Assembly (NCBI RefSeq): GCF_021129305.1
Contig: NZ_JAJOMB010000020.1
Coordinates: 62,001 to 126,000, forward strand
Direction of reading: 5' to 3'
DNA length: 64,000 nucleotides
Source of the DNA: Kineosporia babensis
GTDB lineage: Bacteria > Actinomycetota > Actinomycetes > Actinomycetales > Kineosporiaceae
Shown here: positions 38,791-58,430 of the stretch, piece after piece
Layout: every line of letters begins with the position of its first letter
Numbering within the stretch: position 1 is the stretch's first letter
Notes under the pieces: model-generated
The model's input: only the letters and a program-made list of their open reading frames with translations
Database searches by the model: none
What the model was told of the DNA's origin: nothing
Made by a program: the position numbers and the translations under genes

Positions 38791-41502
38791 TCAGCCCAGC
38801 GCAGGCAGTTTCACCGTCTGCATCGGAGTACGGTTACCGGCCCGGTCGGTGGCCGTGTACTCCAGGATCTGCGGTTCTTCGCGCAGCGCCCGGGTGAACG
38901 GCTCCTGGTACACGCCCAGGAACGTCTCCTCGGTGCGCCACTGGATCCGGTCCAGGCCGGAGACGTCGTCCTTGGCGTCGAGAGTCACCTCTACGCTGCT
39001 GGATCCGAGCGAACGGACGCGGACGGTCGGCACCGGCGCCGTGGTGTCCACGTCGATCTCGCGCACCGCGTGCACGGTCCGGCCGGTGGCATCGGTGGCC
39101 CGGGCCCGCACCCGATAACGCCCGTCGGTCTCCAGGGCGAGAGAGCCCGAGACGGGCGTCCACTCGTCCTGGGTGGCGATCTCGACCGAAGCAATACCCG
39201 GGCCCGGCGAAACCACGGCGACCGAAACCGAAGGCGCGCTGGTGTACCAGCCCGACGAGGCCCGCTCCCCCGCCACGTCCACCCGGATCACCGGCGCCGC
39301 ATGCTCGGAACCGACGTCCGCAGGCAGCTCCCAGACCACCACGTCCTCAACGGATTCCGCAGACCGGAACATCTGGAACCCCGGACCCGAAGCTTCGGGA
39401 CGCTCGGTCCAGGTGTGACCGGCCGGCAACTCCCAGTCGGTGGTCCCGCGGCGCGCAACAGCTGGGTTGTCGAGCGTGCTGGCGGCCGCAGAATTGAGGA
39501 CGCTGATGGTCTCGGATCGGCTCAACAGCCCGGCTTTGGCTGCCTGGACGGCATTGTGGTGAACCGCAGCCAGGAAGTCCTGCGTACGGGAGTAGCCACC
39601 GTTCGACCACAAGCCGGTCAGGAACGACCAGCCGTCCTGATCCTTGCGGTCGGGCACCCCACTGTCGCCGCCCTCACCCAGGAAGGCGATCCGCTCGTCC
39701 TCGATCCGGACGTACAGGTGGTAGCGGTGATCACCGCCCGACCAGGCCGGCTCGAACGTGTGCCCCAGGGCGTTGACCAGGTCGCCGTCCGGCTGGAATC
39801 CGCTCAGCGTGCCGTCGAGAAGGCGGAACGCGGCCGGGGCCACCGTGCGGGTGGTGGTGGCGTCGTCGCGGGCCATCAGCACCGTCGGGCCGAGTTCCAG
39901 ACTGGCCAGGGTGGGGTCGTCCGTCGTCGGGACCAGCCGCAGTTTCAGCGGCATCTCGATGATGATGCAGTCACCGGCCGCGAACTCACGCCGGATCGTG
40001 ACGAACCCCGGATGCTGTTGTTCGAGCTCGATCTCGTGGTCGTTCACCGTGACCAGCTCCGAACCCCGGGCCCAGCTCGGGATCCGCACGTGCACCGCGT
40101 ACGTACCCGCCACGTCGAGCTTCAGCGCGACCTGACCCTCCCGCGGATAACGGGTTTCCAAGGTGACCGTGCCATCGGCCCACTTCACCTGCGAGGGGAT
40201 GTACTGCAGCACGAACAGCTCACCCGGCGCCTGGAAGAACACCGATTCCTGGTGCTTGACATGGCTTTCCAGGCCGGTTCCGCCGCAGCAGGTTCCGACG
40301 TTGCCGTACTCACGGACCGCACCCGGGTCGACCGGGTACATGTACACGACCTCGGGATCGACGTCCGAGCTGACGTCGGCCCGCGAGCCCACGATGTGAT
40401 TCAGCCAGGCGCGCTCGGCGTAGTCGGCGTAGCGCACGTCCAGGGTGTGGGCGAACAGGCCACGGCCGATCTTGAGCAGGTTGTACGTGGCACAGGTCTC
40501 GGCGTTGCGGCGGCCGATGAAGCGGGACACGGCCTCGGCCGGACCCCAGAGTTCGCCCTCGCCGGTACCGCCGTGCGCGAACGTGCGGCCGGGCACGACC
40601 TGGTCCCAGAGGTTGAGCACGGCCTCGAGGTAGCGGGATTCACCAGTGGCCTCGTACTGCCCCAGATGCCCGACCAGCATGGGCAGGTGCTGGTTGGCGT
40701 GCATCCCGTCGAGAATGTCCTGCCCGGCCGCACCCGCGTCCAGCAGGCTGTCCATCTCGAAGGCGGAAGCAGCCTCCAGGAAGGACTTCTCGCCGGTGAT
40801 CCGGTACAGCGCCACCATGCTCTCGTTCATCCCGCCGTACTCACCGGCGATGTAGAGCGACCACATTCGCTGCAGCTGCTCACGTTCCACCCGCTGCATC
40901 CGGGCGGCCGTCCAGTGCCCCATCGCGGTGACCACGTCGAGGGCCTGCTGCGAACCGGTGTGCTCGTAGGCGTCGAGCAGCCCGGCCATGATCTTGTGAC
41001 AGGTGTACCAGGGCGCCCAGATCTCCCCGTAGGGCGCCATGCCCTCCAGCCGGTCGAACTGCCATTCCCCGTACGCAGCGAGGAATCCCGGATGGGTGAA
41101 CCGCTTGGTCTCGGCCAGCGCAGCCTGAACCTCGGCCAGACCGGCAACCATCTCGTCCGACTTCTGCCGGAACACCTCCTCCCCCGTCGAGGCGTAGGCC
41201 AGGGCGAGCATGGACAGGAAGTGCCCGGCGTAGTGCCCACGCAACAGGCTGGCGGTGGGCGCGACCCCGGCGCCCGGGTAGTCGGCACCGGACCAAGGCT
41301 GTTCGTCCGGGTGACCGAAATCTTCCCAGTTACCCGGCGGCACAGCGCCCTTGGTGTCCAGACCGGCGTTGGCCCGGAACACCGCGAGCGCCCGGTCCAC
41401 CGGGTAGACCCGGGCCAGGTGGAGCATCTGGTCCTGGGCGCGCGACTGCACGCCGTCGAGCAGGGTGACGTCGGAGAGCGGGAAGGGCTGGGCGAGCGTC
41501 AA
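38791..41502 (-). CDS. GH127 beta-L-arabinofuranosidase (DUF1680 type), cytosolic
   Basis: A 903-residue glycosidase. The alpha/alpha-barrel spans about 1-430, with beta-sandwich domains behind. The GH127 active site is intact: E335-T-C337 in NAETCATYNLLK and C405-C406 in GTCCGGTG, equivalent to the zinc ligands and catalytic Cys of HypBA1. That enzyme releases L-arabinose from beta-linked arabinose on hydroxyproline. The C-terminal 200 residues look like an added Ig/F5-type module (RVRARATDATGRTV). There is no signal peptide. It is the last gene of the peptide-import operon, with a 4-nt overlap upstream. Confidence 0.88.
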   Translation of the reverse strand: MTLAQPFPLSDVTLLDGVQSRAQDQMLHLARVYPVDRALAVFRANAGLDTKGAVPPGNWEDFGHPDEQPWSGADYPGAGVAPTASLLRGHYAGHFLSMLALAYASTGEEVFRQKSDEMVAGLAEVQAALAETKRFTHPGFLAAYGEWQFDRLEGMAPYGEIWAPWYTCHKIMAGLLDAYEHTGSQQALDVVTAMGHWTAARMQRVEREQLQRMWSLYIAGEYGGMNESMVALYRITGEKSFLEAASAFEMDSLLDAGAAGQDILDGMHANQHLPMLVGHLGQYEATGESRYLEAVLNLWDQVVPGRTFAHGGTGEGELWGPAEAVSRFIGRRNAETCATYNLLKIGRGLFAHTLDVRYADYAERAWLNHIVGSRADVSSDVDPEVVYMYPVDPGAVREYGNVGTCCGGTGLESHVKHQESVFFQAPGELFVLQYIPSQVKWADGTVTLETRYPREGQVALKLDVAGTYAVHVRIPSWARGSELVTVNDHEIELEQQHPGFVTIRREFAAGDCIIIEMPLKLRLVPTTDDPTLASLELGPTVLMARDDATTTRTVAPAAFRLLDGTLSGFQPDGDLVNALGHTFEPAWSGGDHRYHLYVRIEDERIAFLGEGGDSGVPDRKDQDGWSFLTGLWSNGGYSRTQDFLAAVHHNAVQAAKAGLLSRSETISVLNSAAASTLDNPAVARRGTTDWELPAGHTWTERPEASGPGFQMFRSAESVEDVVVWELPADVGSEHAAPVIRVDVAGERASSGWYTSAPSVSVAVVSPGPGIASVEIATQDEWTPVSGSLALETDGRYRVRARATDATGRTVHAVREIDVDTTAPVPTVRVRSLGSSSVEVTLDAKDDVSGLDRIQWRTEETFLGVYQEPFTRALREEPQILEYTATDRAGNRTPMQTVKLPALG

Positions 41503-43025
41503 CGCGTTTTCTCCTGGGTCCAGCGTTCGAGTCCGGCGGCGTCGATCGGCAGCGCCCCGGAGAGCACCTCGTGGCCGTTTTCGGTGACCAGCAGGTCGTC
41601 CTCGATCCGCACGCCGATCCCGCGCAGTTCCGGCGGCACGGTCTCGTCGTGGGCGTGGAAGTACAGACCGGGCTCGACCGTCATCACCATGTCGGCCTGC
41701 ATGGTGGCGCCGGCGTACTGCTCGTAGGCCGAGTTGCCGCAGTCGTGCACGTCCAGGCCGAGGTGGTGGCCGATGCCGCAGACGATGTACCGGCGATGCT
41801 GCTGCCCTTCCGGGGCCAGCGCCTCGTCGACCGAGACCGGCAGCAGACCCCAGTCGTGCAGGCCTTCGGCCAGGACCTCGAGCGAGGCGAAATGGAAGTC
41901 GGAGTACTGGTTCCCGGCCCGGACCTGGGCCATGCCGGCCCGGTGCGAGGCCTCGACCAGATCGTGCACCTTGCGCTGGACCTCGGTGAACGCCCCGCCG
42001 ACGGGCAGCGTGCGGGTGACGTCGGCGGTGTACAGCGAGCGGGCCTCCACCCCCATGTCCAGCAGCAGTGTCTCGCCGGGCAGGATCGGGCCGTCGCAGC
42101 GCACCCAGTGCAGGATCGGGGCGTGCGGGCCGGAGCCGACGATGGTGGCGTAGCCCGGTCCGTTGCCGAACGTGCGGGCGTACCGGTCGAACGTGCCCTG
42201 CAGCCAGCGTTCGCCCAGGCCTTCGGCCGAGGCGCGCGGGATCTCGGCCGCGACGGCCTCGAATCCGCCGACCGTGGCGTCGATCGCCTCACGGAGCTGG
42301 GCGAGTTCCCAGTCGTCCTTGATCATGCGCAGATTGGAGACGATCTCGGCCAGTCCGTCGGACGGCGCGGGCTTGTGGATGTCGGCCACCGGGCGCACGG
42401 GCAGGTCCAGCGCTCGGGACCAGGCGTCCACCCCGGCGGACGGGCCCACCCAGAGTTCGCCGTGGGTGGCGCTGGCGTAGAAGTTCTTCTCGCTGGGGCC
42501 GGCCGGCGGAGGGATGTACAGGACGGACTCGTGCCCACCCTCGCGCGGCGTCATCACCAGCACGGCGCCTTCGGTCTGGCACGAGGTGGCCCAGACGAAG
42601 TCGCTGTCGGCGCGGAAGGCGTAGTCGGCGTCACCGTTGCGGTTGGGCGCCTGGCCGGCTTCCAGCACGATGGTCTGGCCGGGCATGGCCGCGCTCAGCC
42701 GGGCCCGGTGGTCGGCGGCCGCCTGAGCGGCGGCGGCATCGACGGGGGCGGCAACGTCGCGCTCGCCCCAGCCTTGCGCAATCCACTGCTGGAAGCCGGT
42801 GCTCACCTCGCCCAGACGGGGCGGCCGGGTGCCGATCCAGCGCGGGCGACGGTCGGCCGGGGCCGGTCGAGCACCGTCTATTTCTTGCGACGGCCTGTTA
42901 TCGCCGGTCGGAGTGGTGGCCGGGGAGGTGGGCGTAGCGCCCCCGGTCGGCGCCGTGGGAGTGGCGCTCTCCGCGCCCATCACGTCTGTCCCGTCCGGTG
43001 TTGCCGGCGTGCTGTTCGGGTTCAT
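41499..43025 (-). CDS. M24-family aminopeptidase P-like peptidase (Xaa-Pro type)
   Basis: A 508-residue pita-bread metallopeptidase that should remove an N-terminal residue before proline. A Thr/Pro/Ala-rich head of about 60 residues precedes a creatinase-like N-domain. The metal ligands are present in order: LLLDMGVE, LYTADVTRTLPV, GIGHHLGLDVHD, TVEPGLY and VRIEDDLL. Overlaps of 4 nt with the genes on both sides place it in the peptide-import operon, next to a prolyl aminopeptidase. Confidence 0.9.
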   Translation of the reverse strand: MNPNSTPATPDGTDVMGAESATPTAPTGGATPTSPATTPTGDNRPSQEIDGARPAPADRRPRWIGTRPPRLGEVSTGFQQWIAQGWGERDVAAPVDAAAAQAAADHRARLSAAMPGQTIVLEAGQAPNRNGDADYAFRADSDFVWATSCQTEGAVLVMTPREGGHESVLYIPPPAGPSEKNFYASATHGELWVGPSAGVDAWSRALDLPVRPVADIHKPAPSDGLAEIVSNLRMIKDDWELAQLREAIDATVGGFEAVAAEIPRASAEGLGERWLQGTFDRYARTFGNGPGYATIVGSGPHAPILHWVRCDGPILPGETLLLDMGVEARSLYTADVTRTLPVGGAFTEVQRKVHDLVEASHRAGMAQVRAGNQYSDFHFASLEVLAEGLHDWGLLPVSVDEALAPEGQQHRRYIVCGIGHHLGLDVHDCGNSAYEQYAGATMQADMVMTVEPGLYFHAHDETVPPELRGIGVRIEDDLLVTENGHEVLSGALPIDAAGLERWTQEKTR

Positions 43026-44311
43026 CGAAGCTCTCCTCCTCGGTCGCGCACCATCTCCCGCAGCCGGCCGAACGTGCGCCCGCTGCCGATCCCGTCGTGC
43101 TCGAACTCGTTCGTCACCCAGGCCTGCGCGTTCCCCAGGCGAGAGAGCGTGTCCCGCTGCAATCCCTCGTCCACGAACAGATCATCGTGGTAAACCGCTG
43201 CTGCGAGCGGAACTTCGTTGCCCGCCAGCCGCTCCAGGTCGTACAGAGGCGACCAGACCGCCTGCTCAGCCAGAACGTCCATTGCTGCCTTGAACGGACG
43301 CAACGCCGTGAACTCCTCGAACATCCACGGGAAGGCCATTTCCGAGGTGAACAGCAGGGGACGCTGGTCCTCGCCGAACTCGGGACGGCGCTCACGTTCG
43401 CGTTGCGCGGACCAGCGGAACGGCCCGTTCCCCTCGTGCCCGTAGATCGATTCCTGCAGCGTCCAGAACAGCGGGTTTCCGGCGGTGGACGACTTCACCA
43501 GAACCTGCTCCAGGAAGCCGTCGGTGAGTCGGCCGTCCGTTCGTAGTCCTTCCGAGACCAGCCAATGCAACCGCAGATGGCCAGGTCCGAAACCCAGGTC
43601 TCCACCCAGGCTCTGGAACCTCCGGGCCGAAAGCGGCGAACCGTCCGCAAGTTTGATCTCCCCCGAGCCGAGCAGGTCGGCGATCCGGCCGACGGTGTCC
43701 ACGTCCTGGGGATAGCGCCGGTAGAAGTCCGCCGTCTTGTCCGCCGCACGGGTGAAGGTGCGCCGATAGACCTCGTCGGGATCCGGCGGAGTGCCCGGAA
43801 TGCCGCCGCAGACGTAGCAGGCCTTGAGTGCCTCGGGCGCCAGCGACAGGTAGGTCAGGGTGATCCAGCCGCCGAAGCTCTGCGCGAGAGTGGCCCATTT
43901 CCGGCCGTCATAGGCGGTTTTCCGGACATGCTCCAGATCGCGCACGATCGAGTCGGCCCGGAAGTTCAGCAGGTAGTCCGCGGCCGCCCGGCCGTCGGGG
44001 AAAGTACTGATCACCCCACCGTCCACCGGTGAGCTGCCACCCGTCCCCCGTTGATCGACCATGACCACGCGGTAGTGCGGCAGCGCCTCGGCCAGCCAGC
44101 CCCCCAGCGGCGCGGGCCGGGGGTTGGCGCCACCCGGGCCGCCCTGCAGGAAGGTGAGCAGGGGCAGGTCGTCGTGGCGGCGTTCCGGGTCGGCCAGCTC
44201 GCGCACGAAGACTTCGATCGCCGGACCGGAGGGGTTGGACCAGTCCAGCGGGACCTCGACCCGGAACTCACGCACCCAGGCGCCCGGGATCGGGTATTCG
44301 ACAACGTTCAT
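43022..44311 (-). CDS. Prolyl aminopeptidase-like alpha/beta hydrolase (S33)
   Basis: A 429-residue peptidase likely to release N-terminal proline or hydroxyproline from peptides. Family marks are the oxyanion loop LTFLQGGPGGANPRP, DQRGTGGSSP, and the nucleophile segment LAQSFGGW, where the usual Gly before Gln-Ser is Ala. The His lies in TNEFEHDGIGS near the C-terminus. There is no signal peptide. It starts by 4-nt overlap after the second ABC ATPase gene. Confidence 0.88.
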   Translation of the reverse strand: MNVVEYPIPGAWVREFRVEVPLDWSNPSGPAIEVFVRELADPERRHDDLPLLTFLQGGPGGANPRPAPLGGWLAEALPHYRVVMVDQRGTGGSSPVDGGVISTFPDGRAAADYLLNFRADSIVRDLEHVRKTAYDGRKWATLAQSFGGWITLTYLSLAPEALKACYVCGGIPGTPPDPDEVYRRTFTRAADKTADFYRRYPQDVDTVGRIADLLGSGEIKLADGSPLSARRFQSLGGDLGFGPGHLRLHWLVSEGLRTDGRLTDGFLEQVLVKSSTAGNPLFWTLQESIYGHEGNGPFRWSAQRERERRPEFGEDQRPLLFTSEMAFPWMFEEFTALRPFKAAMDVLAEQAVWSPLYDLERLAGNEVPLAAAVYHDDLFVDEGLQRDTLSRLGNAQAWVTNEFEHDGIGSGRTFGRLREMVRDRGGELR

Positions 44312-45147
44312 GACTTCACTTTCTCAGCATTACGCCGCCGCGCCGCTTCCCACTCCGGGCGGATCCGGGGCACCGCGGCCAGCAACTTGCGGGTGTACTC
44401 GTGCTGCGGGTGGTCGAACACCTCGTCACGTTCACCCGTCTCGACCACCTGACCGGCCGTCATCACCGCCACCCGGGTGGCGATCTGCCGGACCACGGCC
44501 AGGTCGTGGGCGATGAACAGGCAGCCGAAGCCCTCTTCGCGCTGCAGATCGCGCAGCAGGTTGATGATCGCGGCCTGCACCGACACGTCCAGCGCCGAGA
44601 CCGCCTCGTCGCAGACCAGCACCCGCGGGCCCACGGCCAGGGCCCGGGCGATCCCGATCCGCTGGGCCTGACCGCCGGAGAACTGCGAGGGGAAGCGGTC
44701 GACGTGCTCGGGGTTCAGGCCGACCCGCTCCATCAGGCCCTGCGCCACCTTGCGGGCGCCGCCGGGCATCGGCCGCTTCTGGTAGCGCAGCGGCGCGGTG
44801 ATGATCTGGGTGATCTTGTGCCGGGGGTTGAGCGAGGAGAACGGGTCCTGGAAGACCACCTGCACCTGACGGCGTACCTCCAGCAGGTCCGCGCCCTGCA
44901 GCGAGGTGATGTCCTGGCCGTCCAGGTGCACGGTGCCGGAGGTGACGTCGATCAGCCGGGAGGCCAGCCGCGCGGTGGTGGACTTGCCCGAGCCGGACTC
45001 GCCGACCAGGGCCAGGGTCTGCCCGGCCTGCAGCTCGAACGAGACCTGGTCCACCGCGGTGAACTTCTTGGCCGGGGTGAACAGCCCGGCCGTGCCGGCC
45101 ACCGGGAACTCCTTGACCAGGTCGGTGGCCTTCAGCAGCGCGCTCAT
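44308..45147 (-). CDS. Peptide ABC transporter ATPase, DppF/OppF type
   Basis: A 279-residue ATPase. Walker A is [13 protein letters not shown], the Q-loop lies in VVFQDPFSSLNPRHK, the signature is FSGGQAQRIGIARAL, Walker B is LVCDEAVSALD, and the H-loop is FIAHDLAVV. The C-terminal CP.HEYTRKLL segment (HPQHEYTRKLLAAVP) is typical of oligopeptide ATPases. It pairs with the ATPase at 45144. Overlaps of 4 nt on both sides. Confidence 0.93.
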   Translation of the reverse strand: MSALLKATDLVKEFPVAGTAGLFTPAKKFTAVDQVSFELQAGQTLALVGESGSGKSTTARLASRLIDVTSGTVHLDGQDITSLQGADLLEVRRQVQVVFQDPFSSLNPRHKITQIITAPLRYQKRPMPGGARKVAQGLMERVGLNPEHVDRFPSQFSGGQAQRIGIARALAVGPRVLVCDEAVSALDVSVQAAIINLLRDLQREEGFGCLFIAHDLAVVRQIATRVAVMTAGQVVETGERDEVFDHPQHEYTRKLLAAVPRIRPEWEAARRRNAEKVKS

Positions 45148-45959
45148 GCCTTGCCTCCGGTGGTTCGCAGTTCGCCGATCGAGTCGTCGATCCGGGGCAC
45201 GGCGTCGAGCAGCGCCTGGGTGTAGGAGTGCTGCGGGTCGGAGAAGATCTGCTCGGCGCTGCCGGTCTCCACCACCTTGCCGTGCCGCATCACGATCAGC
45301 TCGTCGGCCACCTCACTGACCACGGCCAGGTCATGGGTGATCAGGATCAGCGCCGCGCCGGTGTCGCGCTGCACCTCGGCCAGCAGTTCCAGGATCTGCG
45401 CCTGCACGGTCACGTCCAGCGCCGTGGTCGGCTCGTCGGCGATGATCAGTTCCGGGTCGGTGCTCAGCGCCATCGCGATCATCACGCGCTGGCGCATACC
45501 GCCGGAGAACTGGTGCGGGTAGTCGTCCACCCGCCGCCCGGCCTCGCGGATGTGCACCCGTTCCATCGCCTCGATCGCCGCCTGCTTGGCGGCTTTGCGG
45601 CTGACCCCGGAGCGGTGCGACCGGTAGGCCTCGGCGATCTGCGTGCCCACCGTGTAGTACGGGTTCAGCGAGGACAGCGGATCCTGGAACACCATCGCGA
45701 TCCGGTCACCACGCACCGCCCGCATCTGCGGTTCGGACAGCGCGGTCAGTTCCGTGCCGTCGAAATCGAGGCTTCCTTCGCGTTTTCCGCCCTTGGGCAG
45801 CAGACCCATGATGGCCAGGCTGGTCATCGATTTGCCGGATCCGCTCTCGCCGACGATGCCCAGGGTGCCACCGCGCGGCACCCCGAAGCTGATCTCGTCG
45901 ACCACCTTGGCGGCGCCGAAGCTCACGCTCAGCCCGTTCGCCTTCAGCAGCTGGCTCAT
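45144..45959 (-). CDS. Peptide ABC transporter ATPase, DppD/OppD type
   Basis: A 271-residue ATPase. Walker A is [17 protein letters not shown]-loop [14 protein letters not shown], signature [15 protein letters not shown], Walker [14 protein letters not shown]-loop LITHDLAVV. The ATG at 45959 overlaps the permease stop by 4 nt; the open frame further upstream is the permease gene read out of frame. With its partner it forms the ATPase pair of the importer. Confidence 0.93.
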
Positions 45960-47904: not shown

Positions 47905-47905
47905 G

Positions 47906-49612: not shown

Positions 49613-50039
49613 GAGGTCCTGCCTTCCGGGATGCCGCGCGGACCGGGCCTGAATCCTCGGCCTCAACGGTCCGCGCTGGTCTGGATCAGCGAAAAACGTT
49701 CTCTAAAGCAGATGCCCGCGCCATCGGGGCAGGCTGGCGGGGCGTCGCGGCGACCACGTGGACCAGCACGGAGACATCCCTGTCCTGGCTCACCCGGTCA
49801 CCGGGCGACGGGTGCCGATCCGCTGCTGCGGTCCCGGCCACCTGCAGGAACAGTAATATGTCACACCTCATAGGTGAAGGGTCCAGGACCAACTAGTTAC
49901 AAGCCGGCAATGTTTGTTTCGACGGATGGCACATTTTCGTCAGGGCGCCGCGAAATGTGGTCACTGCAGCAGGTTTCTGAGTAACCCACCGCAACGATGA
50001 GCCGGGCCCTCCTACTTAAGCGCTCAAGCCCGGCAACCG
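49613..50039. other. Promoter-side region of the peptide-import operon, no gene
   Basis: No supported coding frame. The palindrome CACCT-CAT-AGGTG (49864-49876) lies about 250 nt before the operon start and could be an operator, perhaps of the nearby GntR regulator. A second hairpin, CACATTTTCG (49930-49939) with CGAAATGTG (49951-49959), follows. The stretch is noticeably less GC-rich than its surroundings around 49850-49990. Confidence 0.4.
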
Positions 50040-50787: not shown

Positions 50788-51250
50788 CATCCACCTTCAC
50801 GGCCGGTGCCCCCGCTTCACCAAACGGCTTCCCTGCTTCACCAACCGGTGCCGCTGCCTCACCACCCGGGGCCGCTGCCTCACCACCCGGTACTCCCCTC
50901 GCCAGCCAGCGTCCCGGCATCAACAGCCAGTGCCCCCTTCACCGGCCGGCGCCCCGCTTCGCCAGCCGGTACCTCACCCTCGCCAGCCAGCAACCGACTT
51001 CACCCGCAGACGTCCCGCTTCGCCAGCCGGCCCCATGCTCGCCAGCCAGCATCCGACTTCACCCGCAGGCGTCCACGCTTCGCCAGCTGGTACCTCATGC
51101 TCACCGGCCAGCGCCCCGCTTCGCCAGCCGGTGCCCACCCTCGCCGGCCGGCATCCGACTTCACCCGCAGGCGTCCACACTTCGCCAGCCGGCCCCATGC
51201 TCGCCGGCCAGCATCAAGCTTCACCAGCCAGCGTCCCCACATCACCAGGG
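50788..51250. repeat. Minisatellite B: about 20-22-bp units
   Basis: Roughly 22 tandem degenerate units with the core CTTCACCAGCCGG or CTCGCCAGCCAGC. In the right half the units form a higher-order pattern of about 60 bp, seen in repeated runs of GCATCCGACTTCACCCGCAG and CTTCGCCAGCCGGCCCCATG. There is no constant repeat with variable spacers, so it is not a CRISPR array. No coding function is apparent. The 240 bp between blocks A and B hold nothing I recognise. Confidence 0.8.
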
Positions 51251-51357
51251 GTTGCGCTGGCGAGCCGTGAGCTGACCTGGGGTTTTGGCGCTGTGCGAGC
51301 TCCTGCCAGGTCACGGACGCTGGTCAGGCAGTTGGGGGCTGTGCAATGGCACTGCCC

Positions 51358-52026
51358 TCAGTCGCGCTCGACCCGGCCGTTCCACCAGCCCAGCACGTGC
51401 TCGATGTGGGCGTGCATCAGCTGCTCCGCACCCCGGCCGTCGCCCTGCTCCAGCCGGTCCATCAGGTGGTGGTGTTCCACCGCCGAGCGGGCCAGTTCCT
51501 CGGTGCCGATCATGTTCACCAGGCCGACCATCCGGGTCTGCTGGCGCAGGTCGCGGACCATCTCGACCAGGCGCCGGTTGCCGGTCAGCTTCAGCAGGGT
51601 GAGGTGAAAGTCCACGTCGGCGTCGAGATACGTGGGAATGTCGGCTGCCTCGGCGCTGCGCACGATCAGGTCGGCCTTCACCCGCAGCTCGGCGCAGGAG
51701 GCGGGCTGGATGGTCCGGGCGATGTCGCGCATCGGGGGCACCTCCAGCAGCTGGCGCAGCCGGACGATCTCCCACAGGTCCTGCTCGCTGACCTCGGTGA
51801 CGCGGAAGCCCTTGTTGCGCACCGCCTCCACGAAGCCGCGCTTCTGCAGGTTGAGCATGGCCTCGCGGACCGGCGTGGCCGAGACCCCGAAGCGGGCGCC
51901 CAGGGTGGGGGCGGTGAGCAGTTCCCCGGGCCCCAGCTCACCGGAGACGATGGCCGCAGCCAGCGCCTCCTCGACCGTGCCCCGCAGGTTGGCGCTCACG
52001 GCCAGCGGACCGATGTGTGAAACCAC
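51358..52026 (-). CDS. GntR-family regulator with FCD ligand domain
   Basis: A 222-residue regulator. The N-terminal winged helix reads EEALAAAIVSGELGPGELLTAPTL and VSATPVREAMLNLQKRGFVEAV. The C-terminal helical FCD domain carries metal-ligand-type residues in YLDADVDFHLTLL, HHHLMDRL and HAHIEHVL. FCD regulators usually respond to organic acids or amino-acid derivatives. Its place between the peptide-import operon and the hydroxyproline operon makes both likely targets. The GTG at 52026 has GAGGT upstream. Confidence 0.9.
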   Translation of the reverse strand: MVSHIGPLAVSANLRGTVEEALAAAIVSGELGPGELLTAPTLGARFGVSATPVREAMLNLQKRGFVEAVRNKGFRVTEVSEQDLWEIVRLRQLLEVPPMRDIARTIQPASCAELRVKADLIVRSAEAADIPTYLDADVDFHLTLLKLTGNRRLVEMVRDLRQQTRMVGLVNMIGTEELARSAVEHHHLMDRLEQGDGRGAEQLMHAHIEHVLGWWNGRVERD

Positions 52027-52160: not shown

Positions 52161-52170
52161 TCCGCGTGGA

Positions 52171-53556
52171 TCAGGAGCGCAGGTGGGCGGGCAGAAGGGC
52201 CGGGGGGAAGTTCTGGAAGGCGACGGGACGCTGGAAGCGCTCGATCGCGGCCAGACCGACCGAAGTGCTGAGCGGGCTGGTGGACGCGGGATAGGGGCCA
52301 CCGTGCTGCTGGGCCGCGGTGACGCTGACGCCGGTGGGCCACTGGTTGTACAGCACCCGCCCGGTCCGAGCGCTCAGCACCGCGGTCAGTGCCCCGGCCT
52401 CGAATCCTTCGGTCGTGCCCTGCACGGTGCCGGTGAGCTGGCCGGGCACGGTGCGCAGAAGTTCGAGCAGGCCGAACAGGTCGTCGCCGTACGAGACCAC
52501 CAGCCCGGCCGGGCCGAACATCTCCAGGTCGAGGGCCTGGGGCGAGGCCACCACGTCGGCCAGCGAGGCGGTGAAGACCCGGGCCACCACACCCTGCTCG
52601 TTGGCCGGGCCGGCCTGCGCCTGCGCCACGCCGGGCAGTCCGGCCATCACCTCGACCGACTGGGCAAAGCCCTTCTCCAGGTGCGAGTTCAGCATCCGCC
52701 CCGGGGCCGGCAGCGAGAGCCCGGCCAAGAACTGTTCGGCGTCGGGCACGAACACCAGGCCGGGGTTGGTGCAGAACTGGCCGGAGCCCATCAGCAGCGA
52801 ATCGAGCCAGCCGGAGGCGATCTCGTCCGAACGCTCGGCCCAGCCCTCGGCGGTGACCACCACCGGGTTCACGCTGCCCAGCTCGCCGTAGAACGGGATG
52901 GGTTCCGGGCGGGAGAGCGCGATGTCGTGCAGCGCGCGCCCACCCGCGGTGGAACCGGTGAACCCAACGGCCTTGATCCGGGGGTCCCGCAGCGCGCTCA
53001 AGGACGGTTCGACGTCTTCAATCAGAGCGAACACACCCGCCGGCGCGCCCACCGAGGCGAGCGCCTGCTCGACCAGCGCGGCGGTCCGGCGCGAGAGCAC
53101 CGGGTGCCCCGGGTGAGCCTTGACCACGACCGGGCAGCCGGCTGCCAGGGCCGAGACCGTGTCGCCGCCGAAGACGCTGAACGCGAACGGGAAGTTGCTC
53201 GCCGCGAACACCAGCACCGGCCCCAACGGGAGCACCGTGCGACGCAGGTCGGGGCGTGGGCCGCTGCCCCACTCGGCTTGCGGCGGGTCGATCTGGGTGG
53301 GCAGCACCGTGCCCTCGCGCAGCGCCGTGGCGAACAGCCGGGCCTGGAACGTGGTCCGCTTCAGCTCACCGGTCAGCCGCGCGGTGGGCAGGTGGGACTC
53401 GTTCTGGGCCAGCTCCACCAGTTCTTCGGCGGCACCGTCGAGCGCCGCGGCGACCGCTTCCAGCCAGCCGGCCCGGGTGTCCGGTGAAGGGCTGGAGGGC
53501 CCGGTCAGCGGAACGACGGCCGCGGCGGCGAGGATCTGGTCCAGCTCTGTAGTCAT
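52171..53556 (-). CDS. 2-Oxoglutarate semialdehyde dehydrogenase
   Basis: A 461-residue aldehyde dehydrogenase, predicted to oxidise 2,5-dioxopentanoate to 2-oxoglutarate. LGPVLVFAASNFPFAFSVFGGD and GCPVVVKAHPGHP form the cofactor site, VGFTGSTAGGRAL the nucleotide loop, FYGELGSVNPV the catalytic Glu, and GSGQFCTNPGL the catalytic Cys. KAHP rather than KPSE at the coenzyme Lys fits the NADP-using semialdehyde group. The ATG at 53556 has AGGAAG upstream. It is the last gene of the hydroxyproline operon. Confidence 0.9.
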   Translation of the reverse strand: MTTELDQILAAAAVVPLTGPSSPSPDTRAGWLEAVAAALDGAAEELVELAQNESHLPTARLTGELKRTTFQARLFATALREGTVLPTQIDPPQAEWGSGPRPDLRRTVLPLGPVLVFAASNFPFAFSVFGGDTVSALAAGCPVVVKAHPGHPVLSRRTAALVEQALASVGAPAGVFALIEDVEPSLSALRDPRIKAVGFTGSTAGGRALHDIALSRPEPIPFYGELGSVNPVVVTAEGWAERSDEIASGWLDSLLMGSGQFCTNPGLVFVPDAEQFLAGLSLPAPGRMLNSHLEKGFAQSVEVMAGLPGVAQAQAGPANEQGVVARVFTASLADVVASPQALDLEMFGPAGLVVSYGDDLFGLLELLRTVPGQLTGTVQGTTEGFEAGALTAVLSARTGRVLYNQWPTGVSVTAAQQHGGPYPASTSPLSTSVGLAAIERFQRPVAFQNFPPALLPAHLRS

Positions 53557-53588
53557 GTCGTCTTCCTGCACTAGAACGGCCAAGTGGC

Positions 53589-54590
53589 TTAGAACGTGAA
53601 CCCTTCCGGGTACGGGTCGCTCGGGTCGAGCAGGTACTGCCCGATGCCGGTCACCCAGGCGCGCCCGGTGATCGTGGGCAACACCGCCCGGTGCGGGCCG
53701 ACCGTGGTCTCGCCGACCAGCCGGCCGACGAAGCGGCTGCCGATGAACGACTCGTTCACGAAGTCCTGGTTCAGCGGCAGCTCACCACGTGCGTACAACT
53801 CTGCCATCCGGGCCGAGGTTCCCGTGCCGCAGGGGGAACGGTCGAACCAGCCGGGGTGGATCGCCATCGCGTGCTGGGAGAGCCGGGCGTCCGAGCCGGG
53901 GGCGATGAACTCGACGTGGTGCACGTGGTCGACGCCGTCGATGGTCGGGTGCTTGGGCGGGTTCTGGGTGTTGATCGCGTCCATGATCGCCAGGCCGGCC
54001 TGCAGGATGTCCTGCTGCCGGGCCCGGTCGAACGGCAGGTTCACCGCCGCCAGATCGACCATGGCGTAGAAGTTCCCGCCGAAGGCCAGGCTGTAGGGCA
54101 CCTCGCCCAGGCCGGGCACCGGCACCACTTCGTCGAGCCGCTCGCAGTACGAGGGGACGTTCTCCAGCGTCACCGACTCGGCGTGCCCGTCCTTGACCGC
54201 GACCTGGGCCACCACCAGCCCGGCCGGGGTGTCCAGCCGGATCGTGGTGACCGGTTCGCTCACCTCGACCATGCCGGTCTCGACCAGCACGGTGGCCACC
54301 CCGATGGTGCCGTGCCCGCACATCGGCAGGCAGCCGGAGACCTCGATGTAGAGCACCCCGAAGTCGGCGTCGGGGCGGGTGGGCGGCTGCAGGATCGCGC
54401 CGCTCATCGCCGCGTGCCCACGAGGCTCGTTCACCAGGAACCGCCGGATGTGATCCATCTCGGCGATGAAGTGCAGCCGGCGCTCGTTCATGGTGGCGCC
54501 GGGGATCACCCCGATGCCCCCGGTGACCACCCGAGTCGGCATGCCCTCGGTGTGCGAGTCGACCGCCGAGTAGAGCCTCGTGGACCGCAT
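53589..54590 (-). CDS. 4-Hydroxyproline 2-epimerase (proline racemase family)
   Basis: A 333-residue enzyme predicted to convert trans-4-hydroxy-L-proline to cis-4-hydroxy-D-proline. Both catalytic cysteines are present, Cys91 in MCGHGTIG and Cys254 in DRSPCGTGTSA. This argues for an epimerase or racemase and against the trans-3-hydroxyproline dehydratases, which have Thr at one position. The neighbouring D-hydroxyproline dehydrogenase genes settle the substrate as hydroxyproline rather than proline. Confidence 0.92.
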   Translation of the reverse strand: MRSTRLYSAVDSHTEGMPTRVVTGGIGVIPGATMNERRLHFIAEMDHIRRFLVNEPRGHAAMSGAILQPPTRPDADFGVLYIEVSGCLPMCGHGTIGVATVLVETGMVEVSEPVTTIRLDTPAGLVVAQVAVKDGHAESVTLENVPSYCERLDEVVPVPGLGEVPYSLAFGGNFYAMVDLAAVNLPFDRARQQDILQAGLAIMDAINTQNPPKHPTIDGVDHVHHVEFIAPGSDARLSQHAMAIHPGWFDRSPCGTGTSARMAELYARGELPLNQDFVNESFIGSRFVGRLVGETTVGPHRAVLPTITGRAWVTGIGQYLLDPSDPYPEGFTF

Positions 54591-54603
54591 GTCAGAACCT
54601 CTT

Positions 54604-55530
54604 TCAGACGGAGGCGGTGGCCTTCAGCGATTCCAGGCCCGCGATCGCGCGTTCCATGTCGGCGCGCACCTGAGCGGTGTGCTCGGCGGTGAGCGGGCCG
54701 CGCGGCGGGCGGCACGGGCCACCGTAACGCCCGACCATCTCCATGCCCAGCTTGATCGCCTGCACGAACTCCACCCGCGAGTCCCAGCGGAACACCGCGA
54801 CCAGGTGCTTGTACAGCTCCCGGGCCTCGTTCACCCGGCCCGCCCGCATGTGCTCGTAGATCTCCACCGACTCGCGCGGGAAGGTGTTGGGGAACCCGGC
54901 GAACCAGCCCACCGCGCCGTCCACCATCAGCTCGAACAGCACGTCGTCGGCGCCGGCGATGACGTCGATGTCGCACAGTTCGGAGATCTCGAACATCCGC
55001 CGGACGTCGCCGCTGAACTCCTTGATCGCCGAGATGTTCGGGATCTGGGCGATCTCGGCGACCAGCTTGGGCACCAGGTCGACCTTGGTGTCGATCGGGT
55101 TGTTGTAGATCATCACCGGCAGGCCGACTTCGGCGATCTTCTCGAAGTGCTCGACCACCTGGGAGTTCGAGGCGCGGTACATGGTCGGCGGGAGCGAGAG
55201 CACGCCGTGCGCGCCGTCCTCGGCGGCCAGTTCGGCCCAGTGCCTGGCCTGGTGCCAGCCGGGACCGTGCACGCCGGCCACGACCACGCCGCGATCGCCC
55301 ACGGTCTCGACCGCGACCTGGATCACCTTGCGGCGCTCGGCGTCGGTCAGCGAGGAGTACTCCCCCAGCGAGCCGTTCGGGCCCACGCCGCGGCAGCCGT
55401 TGCTGATCAGCCAGTCGCAGTGCTCGGCGAACTTGTCGTAGTCCACCTCGAGACCGGCCGGGGCCGAGGGGTTCTCCTTGTACGGCAGGGCGGTGGCGAC
55501 GATGACGCCGCGCAGGTCGGTGGCGCTCAT
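54604..55530 (-). CDS. DapA-family deaminase of 1-pyrroline-4-hydroxy-2-carboxylate
   Basis: A 308-residue TIM-barrel aldolase-family protein. The Schiff-base lysine lies in ISAIKEFSGD, with MIYNNP and the Tyr segment LPPTMYRAS nearby. Members of this branch in hydroxyproline clusters convert 1-pyrroline-4-hydroxy-2-carboxylate to 2-oxoglutarate semialdehyde with loss of ammonia. The ATG at 55530 overlaps the upstream stop by 4 nt. Context, not sequence alone, separates this from dihydrodipicolinate synthase. Confidence 0.88.
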   Translation of the reverse strand: MSATDLRGVIVATALPYKENPSAPAGLEVDYDKFAEHCDWLISNGCRGVGPNGSLGEYSSLTDAERRKVIQVAVETVGDRGVVVAGVHGPGWHQARHWAELAAEDGAHGVLSLPPTMYRASNSQVVEHFEKIAEVGLPVMIYNNPIDTKVDLVPKLVAEIAQIPNISAIKEFSGDVRRMFEISELCDIDVIAGADDVLFELMVDGAVGWFAGFPNTFPRESVEIYEHMRAGRVNEARELYKHLVAVFRWDSRVEFVQAIKLGMEMVGRYGGPCRPPRGPLTAEHTAQVRADMERAIAGLESLKATASV

Positions 55531-56948
55531 GGCGTTTCCTCTCGTTGGGAGCTGGTGGTGGCGGCGAGTTCGCCGAGCCGGACCGGGATCGCGATCGGAC
55601 GACGGGCGGTGCGGCCCGGATCGAGCAGACCGCAGGAGCTGAGGATCTCTTCGGTGTTGCGGCCGCAGGTGCGGCCCTGGCACGGCCCGAGACCGGCTCT
55701 GGTGGTGAGTTTCAGTGAACGCAGCCCGCGCGCCTGGGTGGCGGCGGCCACCTCGCGGACCTCGCCGACCGTGACGTCCTCGCAGCGGCACAGCGTGGTG
55801 CCGGGTTCGGGCCAGGTCTGCCATCCGGGCCGGATGCCGTGCGCCGTCTGCAGGCGTTCGGCAAAGGCCCGAAAGACGTTACGGGCTTTGACAACGGACG
55901 CTCGGGGTTGCGTTCCGGCGGCGGTGGCCCCGGCGATCTCTCCCTCGGCCAGAGCCAGATCGACTCCGCCGATGCCGGTGAGCTCTCCCGCGCAGAAGAC
56001 GTTTTCGACGGACGTGCGCTGCTGGTCGTCGACCACGACGAATCCGTGGGCGTCGACGGTGCAGCCGACCGTGAGGGCGAGCTCGGTGCGCGGGACGAAC
56101 CCGTGGCTCACGCAGACCGCGTCGACCTCGACCCGGCGTTGCGTGCCAGGAACAGGTTTCCAGTCGGCGTCGAGTCTGGCAAGGGTGACCGATTCGACAC
56201 TTTCCTCGCCGTGTGCCGCGATCACGGTCGTCCCGGCGCGATAGGGCACGCGGTGATGCACCATCTCGCGCAGGTAGCCGCCGAGCTCACCGGCCTTCGA
56301 GCGAGTGGCCGCCAGCTCCCAGGGACGCGAAAGCCAGCCCTTGGCAAGTCGTTTCCAGCCTGATGCCTCAGCTACGCCGATCACCGTGGCCCCGGTCCTG
56401 ATCAGGCTGGTGACCACCGGCAGCAGGAACGGACCGGCACCGGCCACGAGCACCCGCTGCCCCACCGCGACCCGTTCGCCCTTGGCCAAGGCCTGGGCCG
56501 CACCGGCGGTGTACACCCCGGGCAGGTCCCAGCCGGGGAAGGGCAAGGTGCGTTCCTGCCCACCGGTGGCGAAAATGATGCTCTGGGGCAGGTAGGTGCG
56601 CGGTTCGCGATCGGCGCCGTCCGGCGGGCCGACCATGACGTGCACCGCTGGGGCCTGGCCGCCGTCCGGCCGCTCGATCGCCCAGACGTGCGCGCCGAGA
56701 ACGACTTCGCACCCCGGATCGTCGCGCAGTTCGCGCTGCACGGTGTTGAAGTGCCGCCACTTGTGGTGCAGCACCTGCTCCTCGCCGCCCTTGCGCGACT
56801 CGGGCAGATGCCGCCAGAACTGCCCGCCCAGGGCATCGCCGGCTTCCAGCAGCACCACCTGCGCGCCACCGGCCAGAGCCGCCCGGGCCGCGGACATCCC
56901 GGCCGGCCCACCGCCGATGATCAGTACCTGGCAGGCCTTCTCAGACAT
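55527..56948 (-). CDS. D-hydroxyproline dehydrogenase subunit, FAD/NAD(P)-type with [2Fe-2S] tail
   Basis: A 473-residue flavoprotein like HcnB-type subunits. The first Rossmann motif is LIIGGGPAGMSAARAALAGG near residue 10; a second, VLVAGAGPFLLPVV, lies near 167. The C-terminal domain holds a BFD-like iron-sulphur pattern, CRC in TTLCRCEDVTV and C-x4-C in GPCQGRTCG. It should transfer electrons within a hetero-oligomeric dehydrogenase. Its ATG lies inside the last codons of the [2Fe-2S] subunit gene (8-nt overlap). Confidence 0.9.
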   Translation of the reverse strand: MSEKACQVLIIGGGPAGMSAARAALAGGAQVVLLEAGDALGGQFWRHLPESRKGGEEQVLHHKWRHFNTVQRELRDDPGCEVVLGAHVWAIERPDGGQAPAVHVMVGPPDGADREPRTYLPQSIIFATGGQERTLPFPGWDLPGVYTAGAAQALAKGERVAVGQRVLVAGAGPFLLPVVTSLIRTGATVIGVAEASGWKRLAKGWLSRPWELAATRSKAGELGGYLREMVHHRVPYRAGTTVIAAHGEESVESVTLARLDADWKPVPGTQRRVEVDAVCVSHGFVPRTELALTVGCTVDAHGFVVVDDQQRTSVENVFCAGELTGIGGVDLALAEGEIAGATAAGTQPRASVVKARNVFRAFAERLQTAHGIRPGWQTWPEPGTTLCRCEDVTVGEVREVAAATQARGLRSLKLTTRAGLGPCQGRTCGRNTEEILSSCGLLDPGRTARRPIAIPVRLGELAATTSSQREETP

Positions 56949-57255
56949 CCGAAGCCTCCTGCGTGGTGATCACGTCGCCCTCCCCCGCCCGCCGCTGGCA
57001 GGCGCGCACGTCGGGGATGTCGTTCACCGTGAGCAGGCAGTCGAAACACACGCCGATCCCGCAGAACACGCCGCGGGGCCGACCGGTGCGCGGGCTGCGC
57101 CGCCACGACTGCCGGCCGTTGCCCATCAGCACCCCGGCGATGCTCTGGCCCTGGAGGCCGCTGAGCGACTCACCGTCCACGGTGATCGTCACCGGGCCGG
57201 AGTCCTTCGGGCGGACCGGGTCCTGCTCGGCGGGCAGACGACGAGGTCCCCTCAC
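56941..57255 (-). CDS. D-hydroxyproline dehydrogenase small [2Fe-2S] subunit
   Basis: A 104-residue HcnA-like protein. The ubiquitin-type fold carries VTITVDGESLSGLQGQSIAGVL and the cluster ligands FCGIGVCFDC followed by ACQ. It bridges the two flavoprotein subunits. The GTG at 57255 overlaps the upstream stop as GTGA and has GGAGGAGG 4 nt before it. The gene is short and lies between two larger genes that overlap it on both sides. Confidence 0.85.
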   Translation of the reverse strand: MRGPRRLPAEQDPVRPKDSGPVTITVDGESLSGLQGQSIAGVLMGNGRQSWRRSPRTGRPRGVFCGIGVCFDCLLTVNDIPDVRACQRRAGEGDVITTQEASDV

Positions 57256-58430
57256 GCGGCCTCCTCCAGATAGGGCTGAAGACTGGGACGGTCGACCCGG
57301 AAGGGATTCTCGCCCGGGGTCTCCAGCAGTTCGCGGGTCAGGATCTCGGCGGTGGCCAGACTCAGGCCGATGCCCGCCCCCTCGTGCCCCGTTGCATGCC
57401 ACAGGCCGGGAACTCGCGGATCGGCTCCGATCACCGGCAGATGATCCGGCATGAACGGCCGGAAGCCGCCGTACGCCCGCATCACCGCGACGTCGGACAG
57501 GAAGGGGAACAGCAGAAGCGCTTTGGCTGCGAGCGCGGCCAGGACCCGGGCCTCGATCCGGTCGTCGAAACCGCGCCGTTCCCGGGACGATCCGATCAGC
57601 ACGGTACCCGCGGCGGTGGATTCGACCACGCTGGAGACCTGTAGATCGGCGGCCCCGGAGCCGACCGCGCCGACGTAGTCCGCGTCGTAGACCTTGTGCT
57701 GGATCCGTTGAGGCATGCGGGTGGTGACCATGACCGTTCCTCGCCGGGGCTTCACCGGCAGCGAGGCGCCGAGTTTCGCGGCCAGCTGTCCTGACCAGGG
57801 CCCGGCCGCGACCACCACGGCATCGCCCAGGAAGTCGCCGTTGCTGGTGCGCACTCCGGTGATCCGGCTGCCGCTCGTCACCGCGCCGAGCACCTCAACG
57901 CCCTGGTGCACCTGGGCCCCGCCGGAACGGGCCGAGGCGAGCAGTGATTCGGTGGCTATCACGGGCTGGACCTGGGCGTCCTGCGGATAGTAGACGGCGC
58001 TGGTGTAGTTGCGGGTGAGGTCCGGCTCCAGTTGGCGCACCTGTTCCTCTCCCACCTCCTCGGCCAGCACACCGGCCGTGCGCTGCTGAGCCGCGAACTC
58101 CCGCAGGCCCTGCGCACCCTGCTCGGTGGTGGCGACGACCAGCCCACCTTTGTACTCCAGTTCCAGGCCCGGAAAGCCCGACGGCAGCTCATCGCGCAGT
58201 TGCGGCCCGATCTCGCGCCACAGTTCTAGCGAGCGCTGCATCAGTTCCAGCTCGCTACCTGGGCCTTTGTCCGAGACCAGGAGGTTGCCCTCGCCGCTGG
58301 AGGAGGTTCCCCCGGCGGAAGGACCGCGGTCGAGCACCACCACGTCGCTCCCGCCGCGCACAAGGGAGCGGGCGATGGCGGCGCCGATGATCCCAGCCCC
58401 GATTACGATGACGCGCCCTCGCTCTGCCAC
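57252..58430 (-). CDS. D-hydroxyproline dehydrogenase catalytic subunit (DAO family)
   Basis: A 392-residue FAD enzyme of the D-amino acid oxidase/glycine oxidase fold. VIVIGAGIIGAAIARSLVRGG at about 8-28 binds FAD. The C-terminal GATGHEGAGI-like segment is LWHATGHEGAGIGLSLATAEIL. With the two other subunits it should oxidise cis-4-hydroxy-D-proline to 1-pyrroline-4-hydroxy-2-carboxylate. The GTG at 58430 is preferred because no ribosome site precedes the TTG at 58454. First gene of the operon. Confidence 0.9.
   Translation of the reverse strand: MAERGRVIVIGAGIIGAAIARSLVRGGSDVVVLDRGPSAGGTSSSGEGNLLVSDKGPGSELELMQRSLELWREIGPQLRDELPSGFPGLELEYKGGLVVATTEQGAQGLREFAAQQRTAGVLAEEVGEEQVRQLEPDLTRNYTSAVYYPQDAQVQPVIATESLLASARSGGAQVHQGVEVLGAVTSGSRITGVRTSNGDFLGDAVVVAAGPWSGQLAAKLGASLPVKPRRGTVMVTTRMPQRIQHKVYDADYVGAVGSGAADLQVSSVVESTAAGTVLIGSSRERRGFDDRIEARVLAALAAKALLLFPFLSDVAVMRAYGGFRPFMPDHLPVIGADPRVPGLWHATGHEGAGIGLSLATAEILTRELLETPGENPFRVDRPSLQPYLEEAA

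Follow-up and report, generated by a model that had tools for sequence, protein, structure and literature searches.

Hydroxyproline-rich glycoproteins (HRGPs) form an abundant, hard-to-digest component of plant walls, and to our knowledge the use of their protein part by soil and root bacteria is poorly known. Two neighbouring operons of the soil actinobacterium Kineosporia babensis raise the question of whether such material can be imported as glycopeptides and deglycosylated only inside the cell. They lie in the 64,000-nucleotide stretch of contig NZ_JAJOMB010000020.1 that we analysed (positions 62,001 to 126,000 of the forward strand; hereafter the window). One operon encodes an Opp-type ABC importer, two peptidases and a glycosidase, and the other encodes enzymes of trans-4-hydroxyproline (Hyp) catabolism. 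A preliminary description of this DNA had read them as a system that imports and consumes arabinosylated Hyp peptides. This reading is supported by the recurrent linkage of the operons, by scans centred on the binding protein, by the co-occurrence of the hydroxyproline 2-epimerase (HypE) and by a motif shared by the two promoters. We consider it probable that the two operons constitute one HypR-controlled regulon for the import of arabinosylated Hyp peptides and their deglycosylation in the cytosol.

All genes named in the preliminary description were recovered by Pfam and NCBIfam domain searches, with open reading frames on the minus strand (Table 1). The order of transcription is DAO, Fer2_4, Pyr_redox/BFD, DHDPS, proline-racemase family, aldehyde dehydrogenase (ALDH) and GntR/FCD, followed after about 1.7 kb by SBP_bac_5 (the peptide-binding lipoprotein, SBP), OppC, OppB, OppD, OppF, an S33-type hydrolase (PIP), an M24 aminopeptidase P (PepP) and the PF07944 glycosidase; the GntR/FCD gene sits between the two operons. 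The gap between GntR and SBP measures about 0.3–1.2 kb in other Kineosporia, as against about 1.7 kb in the window, where imperfect tandem repeats (50275–51248; periods about 60, 90, 102 and 162) occupy much of it. That the window has no Hyp permease, as had been claimed, holds for the two operons; the remaining genome was not searched for one.

The location of the glycosidase decides where deglycosylation could occur. The glycosidase gene begins at a TTG overlapping the stop codon of pepP, and the 262 codons upstream contain no in-frame start codon, which bears out the earlier statement that the enzyme has no signal peptide. In the other five Kineosporia, at most 7 extra codons are available short of pepP. 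We then compared relatives from a glycosidase-profile scan of a species-genome collection, in which the best 80 of 548 confirmed loci were analysed (G, C and L numbers are our handles for genomes, contigs and loci). Signal peptides were scored by a rule (RR, then a hydrophobic stretch, behind the start codon) and by eye, not with SignalP, and the counts cover 79 of the 80 relatives, the contig fragment L073 being unscored. A twin-arginine signal was found in none of the 36 relatives encoded beside PIP or PepP, as compared with 41 of the 43 others; the two of the latter group in which it was not detected, L124 and L141, begin close to the end of a contig. The cluster-linked L078 has an Ala-rich N-terminus with no charged start and was scored as lacking a signal. 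In a tree of 85 catalytic domains, one branch (SH-aLRT 99) separated 42 cytosolic-type from 43 secreted-type rows, with L073, placed in the cytosolic clade, as the single apparent exception; this fragment is counted among the 44 unlinked loci below and, in the tree, as secreted. Because of the missing upstream start, the 0/36 twin-arginine signals and the split of the tree, we regard a cytosolic location of the window enzyme as strongly supported, and its clade appears to be the cytosolic counterpart of a twin-arginine-secreted one. A secreted window enzyme was rejected on its start-codon context and the N-termini of the cluster-linked relatives. The enzyme also carries an OmpL47-type domain (residues 835–898) of a kind usual in surface proteins, and a region similar to its C-terminus forms a separate downstream open reading frame beside the secreted relative of G054.

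The glycosidase had been labelled GH127, a label that did not survive comparison with solved structures. A profile of seven glycosidase relatives scored 286 bits against 5opj and 228 against 8k7x/8k7y, as compared with 102, 98 and 52 bits against the GH127-type structures 6ex6, 4qjy and 3wkw; on these scores, GH127 proper was rejected in favour of a GH146-like assignment. We take 8k7x/8k7y to be the GH146 enzyme Bll3HypBA1. The PF07944 fold has its Glu-Cys-Cys-Cys zinc and nucleophile site: E335, C337, C405 and C406, aligned with 5opj, are invariant in 28 sequences and match the zinc-binding and nucleophile residues. Two GH146 enzymes act on the linkage in question: XeHypBA1 mainly hydrolyses beta1-linked arabinofuranosyl-Hyp (Araf-beta1-Hyp), and Bll4HypBA1 acts on HRGP-backbone Hyp that carries beta1-linked Araf (PMC10850190). 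Activity of the window enzyme on Hyp-linked beta-arabinose is therefore plausible by analogy under the GH146 label.

Linkage to Hyp genes follows the same division among the 80 loci. PIP and/or PepP stood beside the glycosidase in 36 of them, mostly with the complete Opp genes. In 25 of these 36, the flank contained one or more Hyp-pathway genes, as opposed to 1 of the 44 others (an ALDH at 37%); in 10 of the 25, one Hyp gene only was seen, at or near the cut edge. A stricter rule, which required HypE, DHDPS or two or more Hyp genes, gave 17/36 and 0/44 (Fisher P 8e-8, not corrected for relatedness). Wider flanks added L083 and L106, so that 27 of the 36 cluster loci were linked to Hyp genes, and they revealed a full Hyp operon beside the cluster at L071, L072, L075, L078 and L083; no orthologue match was obtained in them for ALDH around L070 or for DHDPS and ALDH around L106. 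HypE was encoded somewhere in all 19 of the cluster-holding genomes searched (E <= 1e-60), compared with 21 of 118 relatives under that cut-off. It stood beside the cluster in 9 of the 19 (L070, L071, L072, L075, L078, L083 and L106, with L079 and L080 by coordinates only), a proportion that understates linkage, as the sample was drawn from loci whose HypE had not been fully seen.

The arrangement recurs, with rearrangements, in Actinoplanes, Catenuloplanes, Kineococcus, Glycomyces, Microbacterium, Promicromonospora and others. The Hyp operon lies upstream on the same strand in Kineosporia, Actinoplanes, Catenuloplanes, Symbioplanes, Kineococcus and one Streptomyces, downstream on the same strand in Glycomyces and, with another gene order, in Microbacterium, and divergent from the cluster in Promicromonospora. 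Such varied gene orders of a rebuilt linkage point to function and not to descent alone. At the Microbacterium loci L076, L077, L084, L085, L091, L092 and L114, the Hyp operon is of a different lineage, with a DHDPS about 45–48% identical.

Within the genus, five relatives were found in a 118-genome search, and the gene array is kept in all five, the G002 copy being split by contig ends. The occurrence of the two operons side by side in relatives had been named beforehand as a test, and it was seen both here and in other genera. PIP is present in the window and in G001 and absent between OppF and PepP in G003 (L056), G004 (L055) and G005 (L057); the contig break of G002 falls at its position, and PIP is thus missing in three of the four relatives with an unbroken cluster. 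None of eight genes flanking the operons in the window was directly beside the cluster in the other Kineosporia (roughly 3–13 kb read per side). In G001, one of them (58886–59488) turned up some 5 kb upstream; two others gave short partial matches. The layout is therefore more than chance, because the block is kept in five Kineosporia without its flanks and recurs in further genera; on the same grounds, adjacency by simple descent was rejected.

To avoid selection on the glycosidase, we used SBP as the query (E <= 1e-140) against two overlapping samples, 394 genomes from the class and 396 from the order. The two scans combined found it in 15 genomes of eight genera, six of the genomes being Kineosporia. 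A PF07944-family gene and PepP were in the cluster in 14 of the 15 genomes and seven of the eight genera (in G002 across the contig break), and the Hyp operon was linked in 11 genomes and five genera. In G032, G240, G312, G316, G386 and G767, a different PF07944-type gene stands directly upstream of the SBP gene. The G316 protein scored 338, 320 and 291 bits against the GH127-type structures 6ex6, 4qjy and 3wkw and 28 bits against 5opj; its closest structure, 6ex6, is presumably the aceric acid hydrolase BT1003. The proteins from the other five genomes are 56–77% identical to it; among all six, the four with resolved N-termini (those other than G240 and G767) have no signal peptide. Two enzyme families thus appear to have been recruited beside the same importer and peptidases, which suggests that the slot matters more than the family. 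G767 has, in addition to its GH127-type gene beside SBP, a gene 44–48% like the window glycosidase beyond the Hyp operon (L192:5282–7921).

Some clusters carry a further glycosidase. A GH36 alpha-galactosidase gene occurs at seven loci, in gaps of the Pseudoclavibacter (L074), Leucobacter (L090) and G240 (L163) clusters and divergent from the SBP gene in four Glycomyces loci (L088, L109, L111 and L113); the three GH36 N-termini read have no signal peptide. GH36 enzymes act on other alpha-galactosides too. In extensin repeats, Ser bears alpha-galactose and each Hyp as many as four or five arabinoses (PMC7933510), and the presence of GH36 in the clusters points to extensin.

The regulator is a candidate for joint control of both operons. 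In K. rhizophila, Actinoplanes, Symbioplanes, Catenuloplanes, Kineococcus and one Streptomyces, the same genes are accompanied by a protein 74–90% identical to the GntR/FCD protein of the window. The HypR consensus measured in Streptomyces coelicolor is CTNTGC(A/C)ATGTCAC (PMC6608401). As in that regulon, a GntR/FCD gene adjoins the Hyp genes of the window and a near-consensus site lies before them (58590–58603), the consensus used being that of S. coelicolor. No exact shared words (8–12 bases) or perfect palindromes were found in the two promoter sets. Alignment of the promoters of six Kineosporia revealed the motif TGTGNNATATTACTG upstream of both SBP and DAO in all six, with one mismatch at the window's DAO. 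As it was discovered after the fact in this genus, the other genera serve as its test.

With up to one mismatch, TGTGNNATATTACTG has four sites in the 9.4 Mb of the organism's own genome, two of which are the SBP and DAO promoters; a reversed control pattern has zero. Four matches with up to three mismatches in the window alone are not significant (7 of 100 shuffles reach 4), so that the weight of the motif lies in the genome-wide and cross-genus counts. With up to two mismatches, it precedes both operons in six Glycomyces loci, Symbioplanes, Catenuloplanes, Kineococcus, Streptomyces NBC_01549, G316 and G386, and it is absent from the 844 kb that represent the 44 unlinked loci. G032, whose two operons lie apart, has one site ahead of the importer cluster (L159) and another within the Hyp operon, preceding DHDPS (L176). 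CAGTNNNATGTCAC is common to the reverse complement of the motif, CAGTAATATGTCAC, and to CAGTGCCATGTCAC, the second site before DAO. Exact CAGTNNNATGTCAC occurs four times in the own genome, including the SBP and DAO promoters, and with up to one mismatch it gave 3 matches in 839 kb of 43 unlinked loci; the HypR consensus with up to two mismatches is a weak criterion, giving 14 matches in the same DNA. The SBP site (49851–49865) has the ATGTCAC core in common with the HypR site and equals the sites before DAO in other genera. These results suggest that HypR-type control of the importer operon is likely, and the motif before both operons adds to the preliminary description a likely co-regulation that it had not seen. 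A further own-genome site of the motif (C31:13690) is about 6.5 kb from a second PF07944 gene, described below.

Table 1. Features of the two operons and their intergenic regions in the K. babensis window
Feature	Coordinates	Strand	Domains and remarks
trans-4-Hydroxyproline (Hyp) operon	58430-52171	-	6 genes, co-directional
FAD-dependent D-hydroxyproline dehydrogenase subunit, DAO family	57252..58430	-	PF01266 E=4e-68; orthologues in all Kineosporia read
2Fe-2S (Fer2_4) dehydrogenase subunit	56941..57402	-	PF13510
Pyr_redox_2 + BFD-type [2Fe-2S] dehydrogenase subunit	55527..56948	-	PF07992, PF04324
DHDPS-family, probable pyrroline-4-hydroxy-2-carboxylate deaminase	54604..55530	-	PF00701; 89-96% identity in Kineosporia
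Probable hydroxyproline 2-epimerase, proline racemase family	53589..54590	-	PF05544 E=6e-126
Aldehyde dehydrogenase, probable 2-oxoglutarate semialdehyde dehydrogenase	52171..53583	-	PF00171
GntR/FCD regulator, probable HypR-type repressor	51358..52026	-	PF00392, PF07729
Opp-type operon SBP-OppCBDF-PIP-PepP-glycosidase	49666-38791	-	8 genes
Peptide-binding lipoprotein SBP_bac_5	47906..49666	-	PF00496; nearest PDB 2wok, 302 bits
OppC-type permease	46942..47904	-	PF00528, PF12911
OppB-type permease	45956..46945	-	PF19300, PF00528
OppD-type ATPase	45144..45959	-	PF00005, oligo_HPY
OppF-type ATPase	44308..45147	-	PF00005, oligo_HPY
S33-type alpha/beta hydrolase (PIP), probable prolyl (hydroxyprolyl) aminopeptidase	43022..44311	-	PF00561
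M24 aminopeptidase P type (PepP, Xaa-Pro aminopeptidase)	41499..43025	-	PF00557, PF05195
GH146-like beta-L-arabinofuranosidase family protein, predicted cytosolic	38791..41502	-	PF07944; C-terminal OmpL47-type domain
Operator-like motif TGTGCAATATTACAG	58433..58447	-	directly before DAO start
Near-consensus site CAGTGCCATGTCAC	58590..58603	-	one mismatch to S. coelicolor HypR consensus; about 160 bases upstream of DAO start
Near-consensus site CTGTGCAATGGCAC	51339..51352	+	one mismatch to S. coelicolor HypR consensus; between GntR and SBP; weak evidence
Operator-like motif TGTGACATATTACTG (reverse complement CAGTAATATGTCACA)	49851..49865	-	upstream of SBP operon

The enzyme set of the Hyp operon is that of a trans-4-hydroxy-L-proline pathway: epimerase, D-Hyp dehydrogenase subunits, DHDPS-type deaminase and ALDH are encoded in one operon that is kept in relatives. 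The DAO reading frame opens at TTG 58454, and the likelier start is GTG 58430, just behind the operator-like motif. The first 36 residues of the Fer2_4 subunit are unmatched in K. rhizophila, and its true start is probably further in. Neither the epimerase nor the ALDH reached an NCBIfam equivalog cut-off. The epimerase carries both catalytic Cys (MCGHG and SPCGTG) and, in alignment, a Ser at the position of Phe62 of TlProR, which is HypE-like; the sites that discriminate HypE from proline racemase are described in PMC4364671.

The importer has the components of an Opp/Dpp peptide ABC importer, namely an SBP_bac_5 protein, two BPD permeases and two oligo_HPY ATPases, and a domain search found no sugar importer in its operon. 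By eye, SBP has the lipobox LSAC, with a likely start at GTG about 49612. PIP matches the NCBIfam prolyl aminopeptidase model weakly, below the cut-off, and classical proline iminopeptidases match it weakly; its nearest PDB structures are 8jgm/8jgn (306 bits), entries named At3g61540 and DM3Hh0. The N-terminal 41–57 residues of PepP have no match in most relatives.

From these parts we propose the following route. The source would be O-arabinosylated Hyp-rich peptides of the plant wall, most likely extensin fragments. The lipoprotein-dependent importer would take up short peptides with the Hyp-linked beta-L-arabinofuranose still attached, and the GH146-like enzyme would strip the arabinose inside the cell, a role that a GH127-type enzyme may fill in other lineages; in some of them, GH36 could remove Ser-linked galactose. 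The arabinose would pass to the arabinose isomerase homologue that is encoded elsewhere in the genome. The bare peptide would be reduced to amino acids by PepP (Xaa-Pro) and, where present, PIP (Pro/Hyp-Xaa), and Hyp would be converted to 2-oxoglutarate by the 2-epimerase, D-Hyp dehydrogenase, pyrroline-4-hydroxy-2-carboxylate deaminase and semialdehyde dehydrogenase. A HypR-type GntR/FCD repressor would control both operons through the shared operator. What the sequences show of this is the gene content, the lack of a signal peptide, the recurring linkage, the motif common to both promoters and the GH146-like assignment; the substrates, the repression, the passage of intact glycopeptides and all enzyme activities are inferred from them. 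The most specific form of this proposal is a dedicated route in which whole O-glycosylated extensin peptides are imported with their arabinose and, in some lineages, their Ser-linked galactose, deglycosylated only once inside by GH146, GH127-type and GH36 enzymes that lack a signal peptide, cut by Pro/Hyp-specific aminopeptidases and placed under one HypR-type regulator; we hold the chances of this form to be evenly balanced.

Several observations weigh against the proposal. The structure nearest to the window glycosidase, 5opj, is an enzyme that we take to be the GH146 arabinan enzyme BT0349. Since Opp binding proteins are often broad in specificity, bare Hyp peptides could be imported alongside a separate arabinoside. 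Because the epimerase has Ile at the position of TlProR Trp241, where HypE has Cys or Tyr, and its nearest PDB structures are proline racemases, its substrate assignment comes mainly from context. Ten of the 19 genomes searched for HypE encode it away from the cluster (L074, L082, L089, L090, L098, L109, L111, L113, L117 and L144); in L144 a DHDPS (87%) is beside GntR, and L098 has pieces of DAO and ALDH. Among the SBP holders, no full Hyp operon is linked in G032 (operon elsewhere), G240 (DHDPS only) or G312 (none in 36 kb), and G754, the weakest SBP match (43% identity), has no glycosidase, peptidases or Hyp genes in the DNA read. GH36 occurs in only 6 of the 36 cluster loci and one of the nine SBP-scan genomes outside Kineosporia, and the window cluster has none. 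With up to two mismatches, the motif is found at none of nine Microbacterium cluster loci, seven of which have linked Hyp genes, nor at the Brachybacterium locus, and L107 (Glycomyces) has it before SBP only. HypR control of the importer is no more than likely, as the SBP site is four positions off the S. coelicolor consensus. Other characterised GH146 enzymes cleave arabinan or arabinosides of arabinogalactan proteins (PMC10850190).

The operons might instead serve Hyp- and Pro-rich peptides in general (extensin, proline-rich protein or collagen-like) that are deglycosylated outside, with the cytosolic glycosidase acting on co-imported arabino-oligosaccharides and the operons linked because both materials come from plant walls. 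The intracellular GH127 enzyme HypBA1 of Bifidobacterium longum does cleave imported Ara2 (PMC7263609), and HypR of S. coelicolor controls a collagenase gene too (PMC6608401). The own genome, moreover, holds the second PF07944 gene (G000:C31, L174:12145–14019), of GH127 type and with no signal peptide. A LacI regulator and a sugar-type ABC importer are encoded next to it, and that locus looks like a B. longum-style arabino-oligosaccharide system. The same gene can be read the other way: as the genome has this separate enzyme with a sugar ABC importer, a different role for the cluster enzyme is favoured. The importer of the window operon is of the peptide type, the glycosidase is kept in 14 of 15 SBP holders though PIP is sometimes lost, and Hyp genes accompany the cytosolic GH146 clade at three quarters of the cluster loci (27/36). 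We thus regard this explanation as rather unlikely.

Small arabinosylated plant peptide signals, which the system would remove or eat, could be the substrates: the CLE, PSY1 and HypSys types bear the same inner Hyp-arabinose linkages (PMC7933510), and their size should suit Opp import. Such signals, however, should be a far scarcer source of carbon than extensin, the coupling to complete Hyp catabolism suggests bulk nutrition and GH36 in some clusters fits the Ser-linked galactose of extensin better, so that we find this quite improbable. Hardly credible, finally, is a chance neighbourhood of unrelated operons held together by the close kinship of the Kineosporia genomes. The operons are indeed separate, with the repeat-containing gap of about 1.7 kb between them, but this account is already contradicted by the linkage in many other genera in several arrangements, and neither the absence of all eight tested flanking genes from directly beside the cluster in other Kineosporia nor the motif common to both promoters agrees with it.

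If the proposed glycopeptide import is correct, taking up the glycopeptide first would explain how an organism could feed on HRGPs and leave no free sugar or amino acids to its competitors. The known Hyp regulon would gain a glycopeptide importer and deglycosylating enzymes, functions would be suggested for cytosolic GH146 and GH127 enzymes now named by family alone, and the clusters would offer a genomic marker of extensin use in actinobacteria. In full-text searches of one open-access library, with subscription journals outside its scope, we found no description of Hyp catabolism joined to peptide import, proline-specific peptidases and a cytosolic arabinosidase.

The proposed route can be compared with several known systems. 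For Latescibacteria, extensin use has been proposed in which arabinose is released by GH127 and then imported (PMC4454575). The HypBA system of B. longum (GH121 HypBA2, a sugar ABC importer and GH127 HypBA1) resembles that of Kineosporia in using beta-L-arabinosides of Hyp-rich glycoproteins and in combining an ABC importer with a cytosolic beta-L-arabinofuranosidase; there, Ara2 is cut off outside and imported as a disaccharide by a sugar-type importer (PMC7263609), whereas at the window locus no sugar-type ABC importer stands beside the glycosidase and a peptide-type importer, proline-specific peptidases, a GH146-like enzyme and linked Hyp catabolism are found. XeHypBA1 and Bll4HypBA1 have the same PF07944-type zinc and Cys site as the window enzyme and both act on Araf-beta1-Hyp, but in the available part of that work no coupling to Opp import or Hyp catabolism is noted (PMC10850190). 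Neighbourhoods of the proline racemase superfamily include the 4HypE-DAO-DHDPS-ALDH arrangement seen in Kineosporia, with peptidases and ABC transporters beside another branch (a Bacilli cluster) and, in the part available, no glycosidase coupling reported (eLife 2014, PMC4113996). The HypR regulon of S. coelicolor (SCO6289-6294) has the same Hyp enzyme set, a GntR/FCD-type regulator and the ATGTCAC operator core; its ALDH lies outside the operon, unlike that of Kineosporia, and its targets include collagenase, multidrug-type ABC and 2-oxoglutarate dehydrogenase genes, the main text containing no word that begins with peptide or aminopeptidase (PMC6608401). The Kineosporia regulator, in contrast, appears to govern a peptide importer together with peptidases and a glycosidase. 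The individual parts are known, and the recurrence of the set in many related bacteria points to a real and possibly undescribed pathway.

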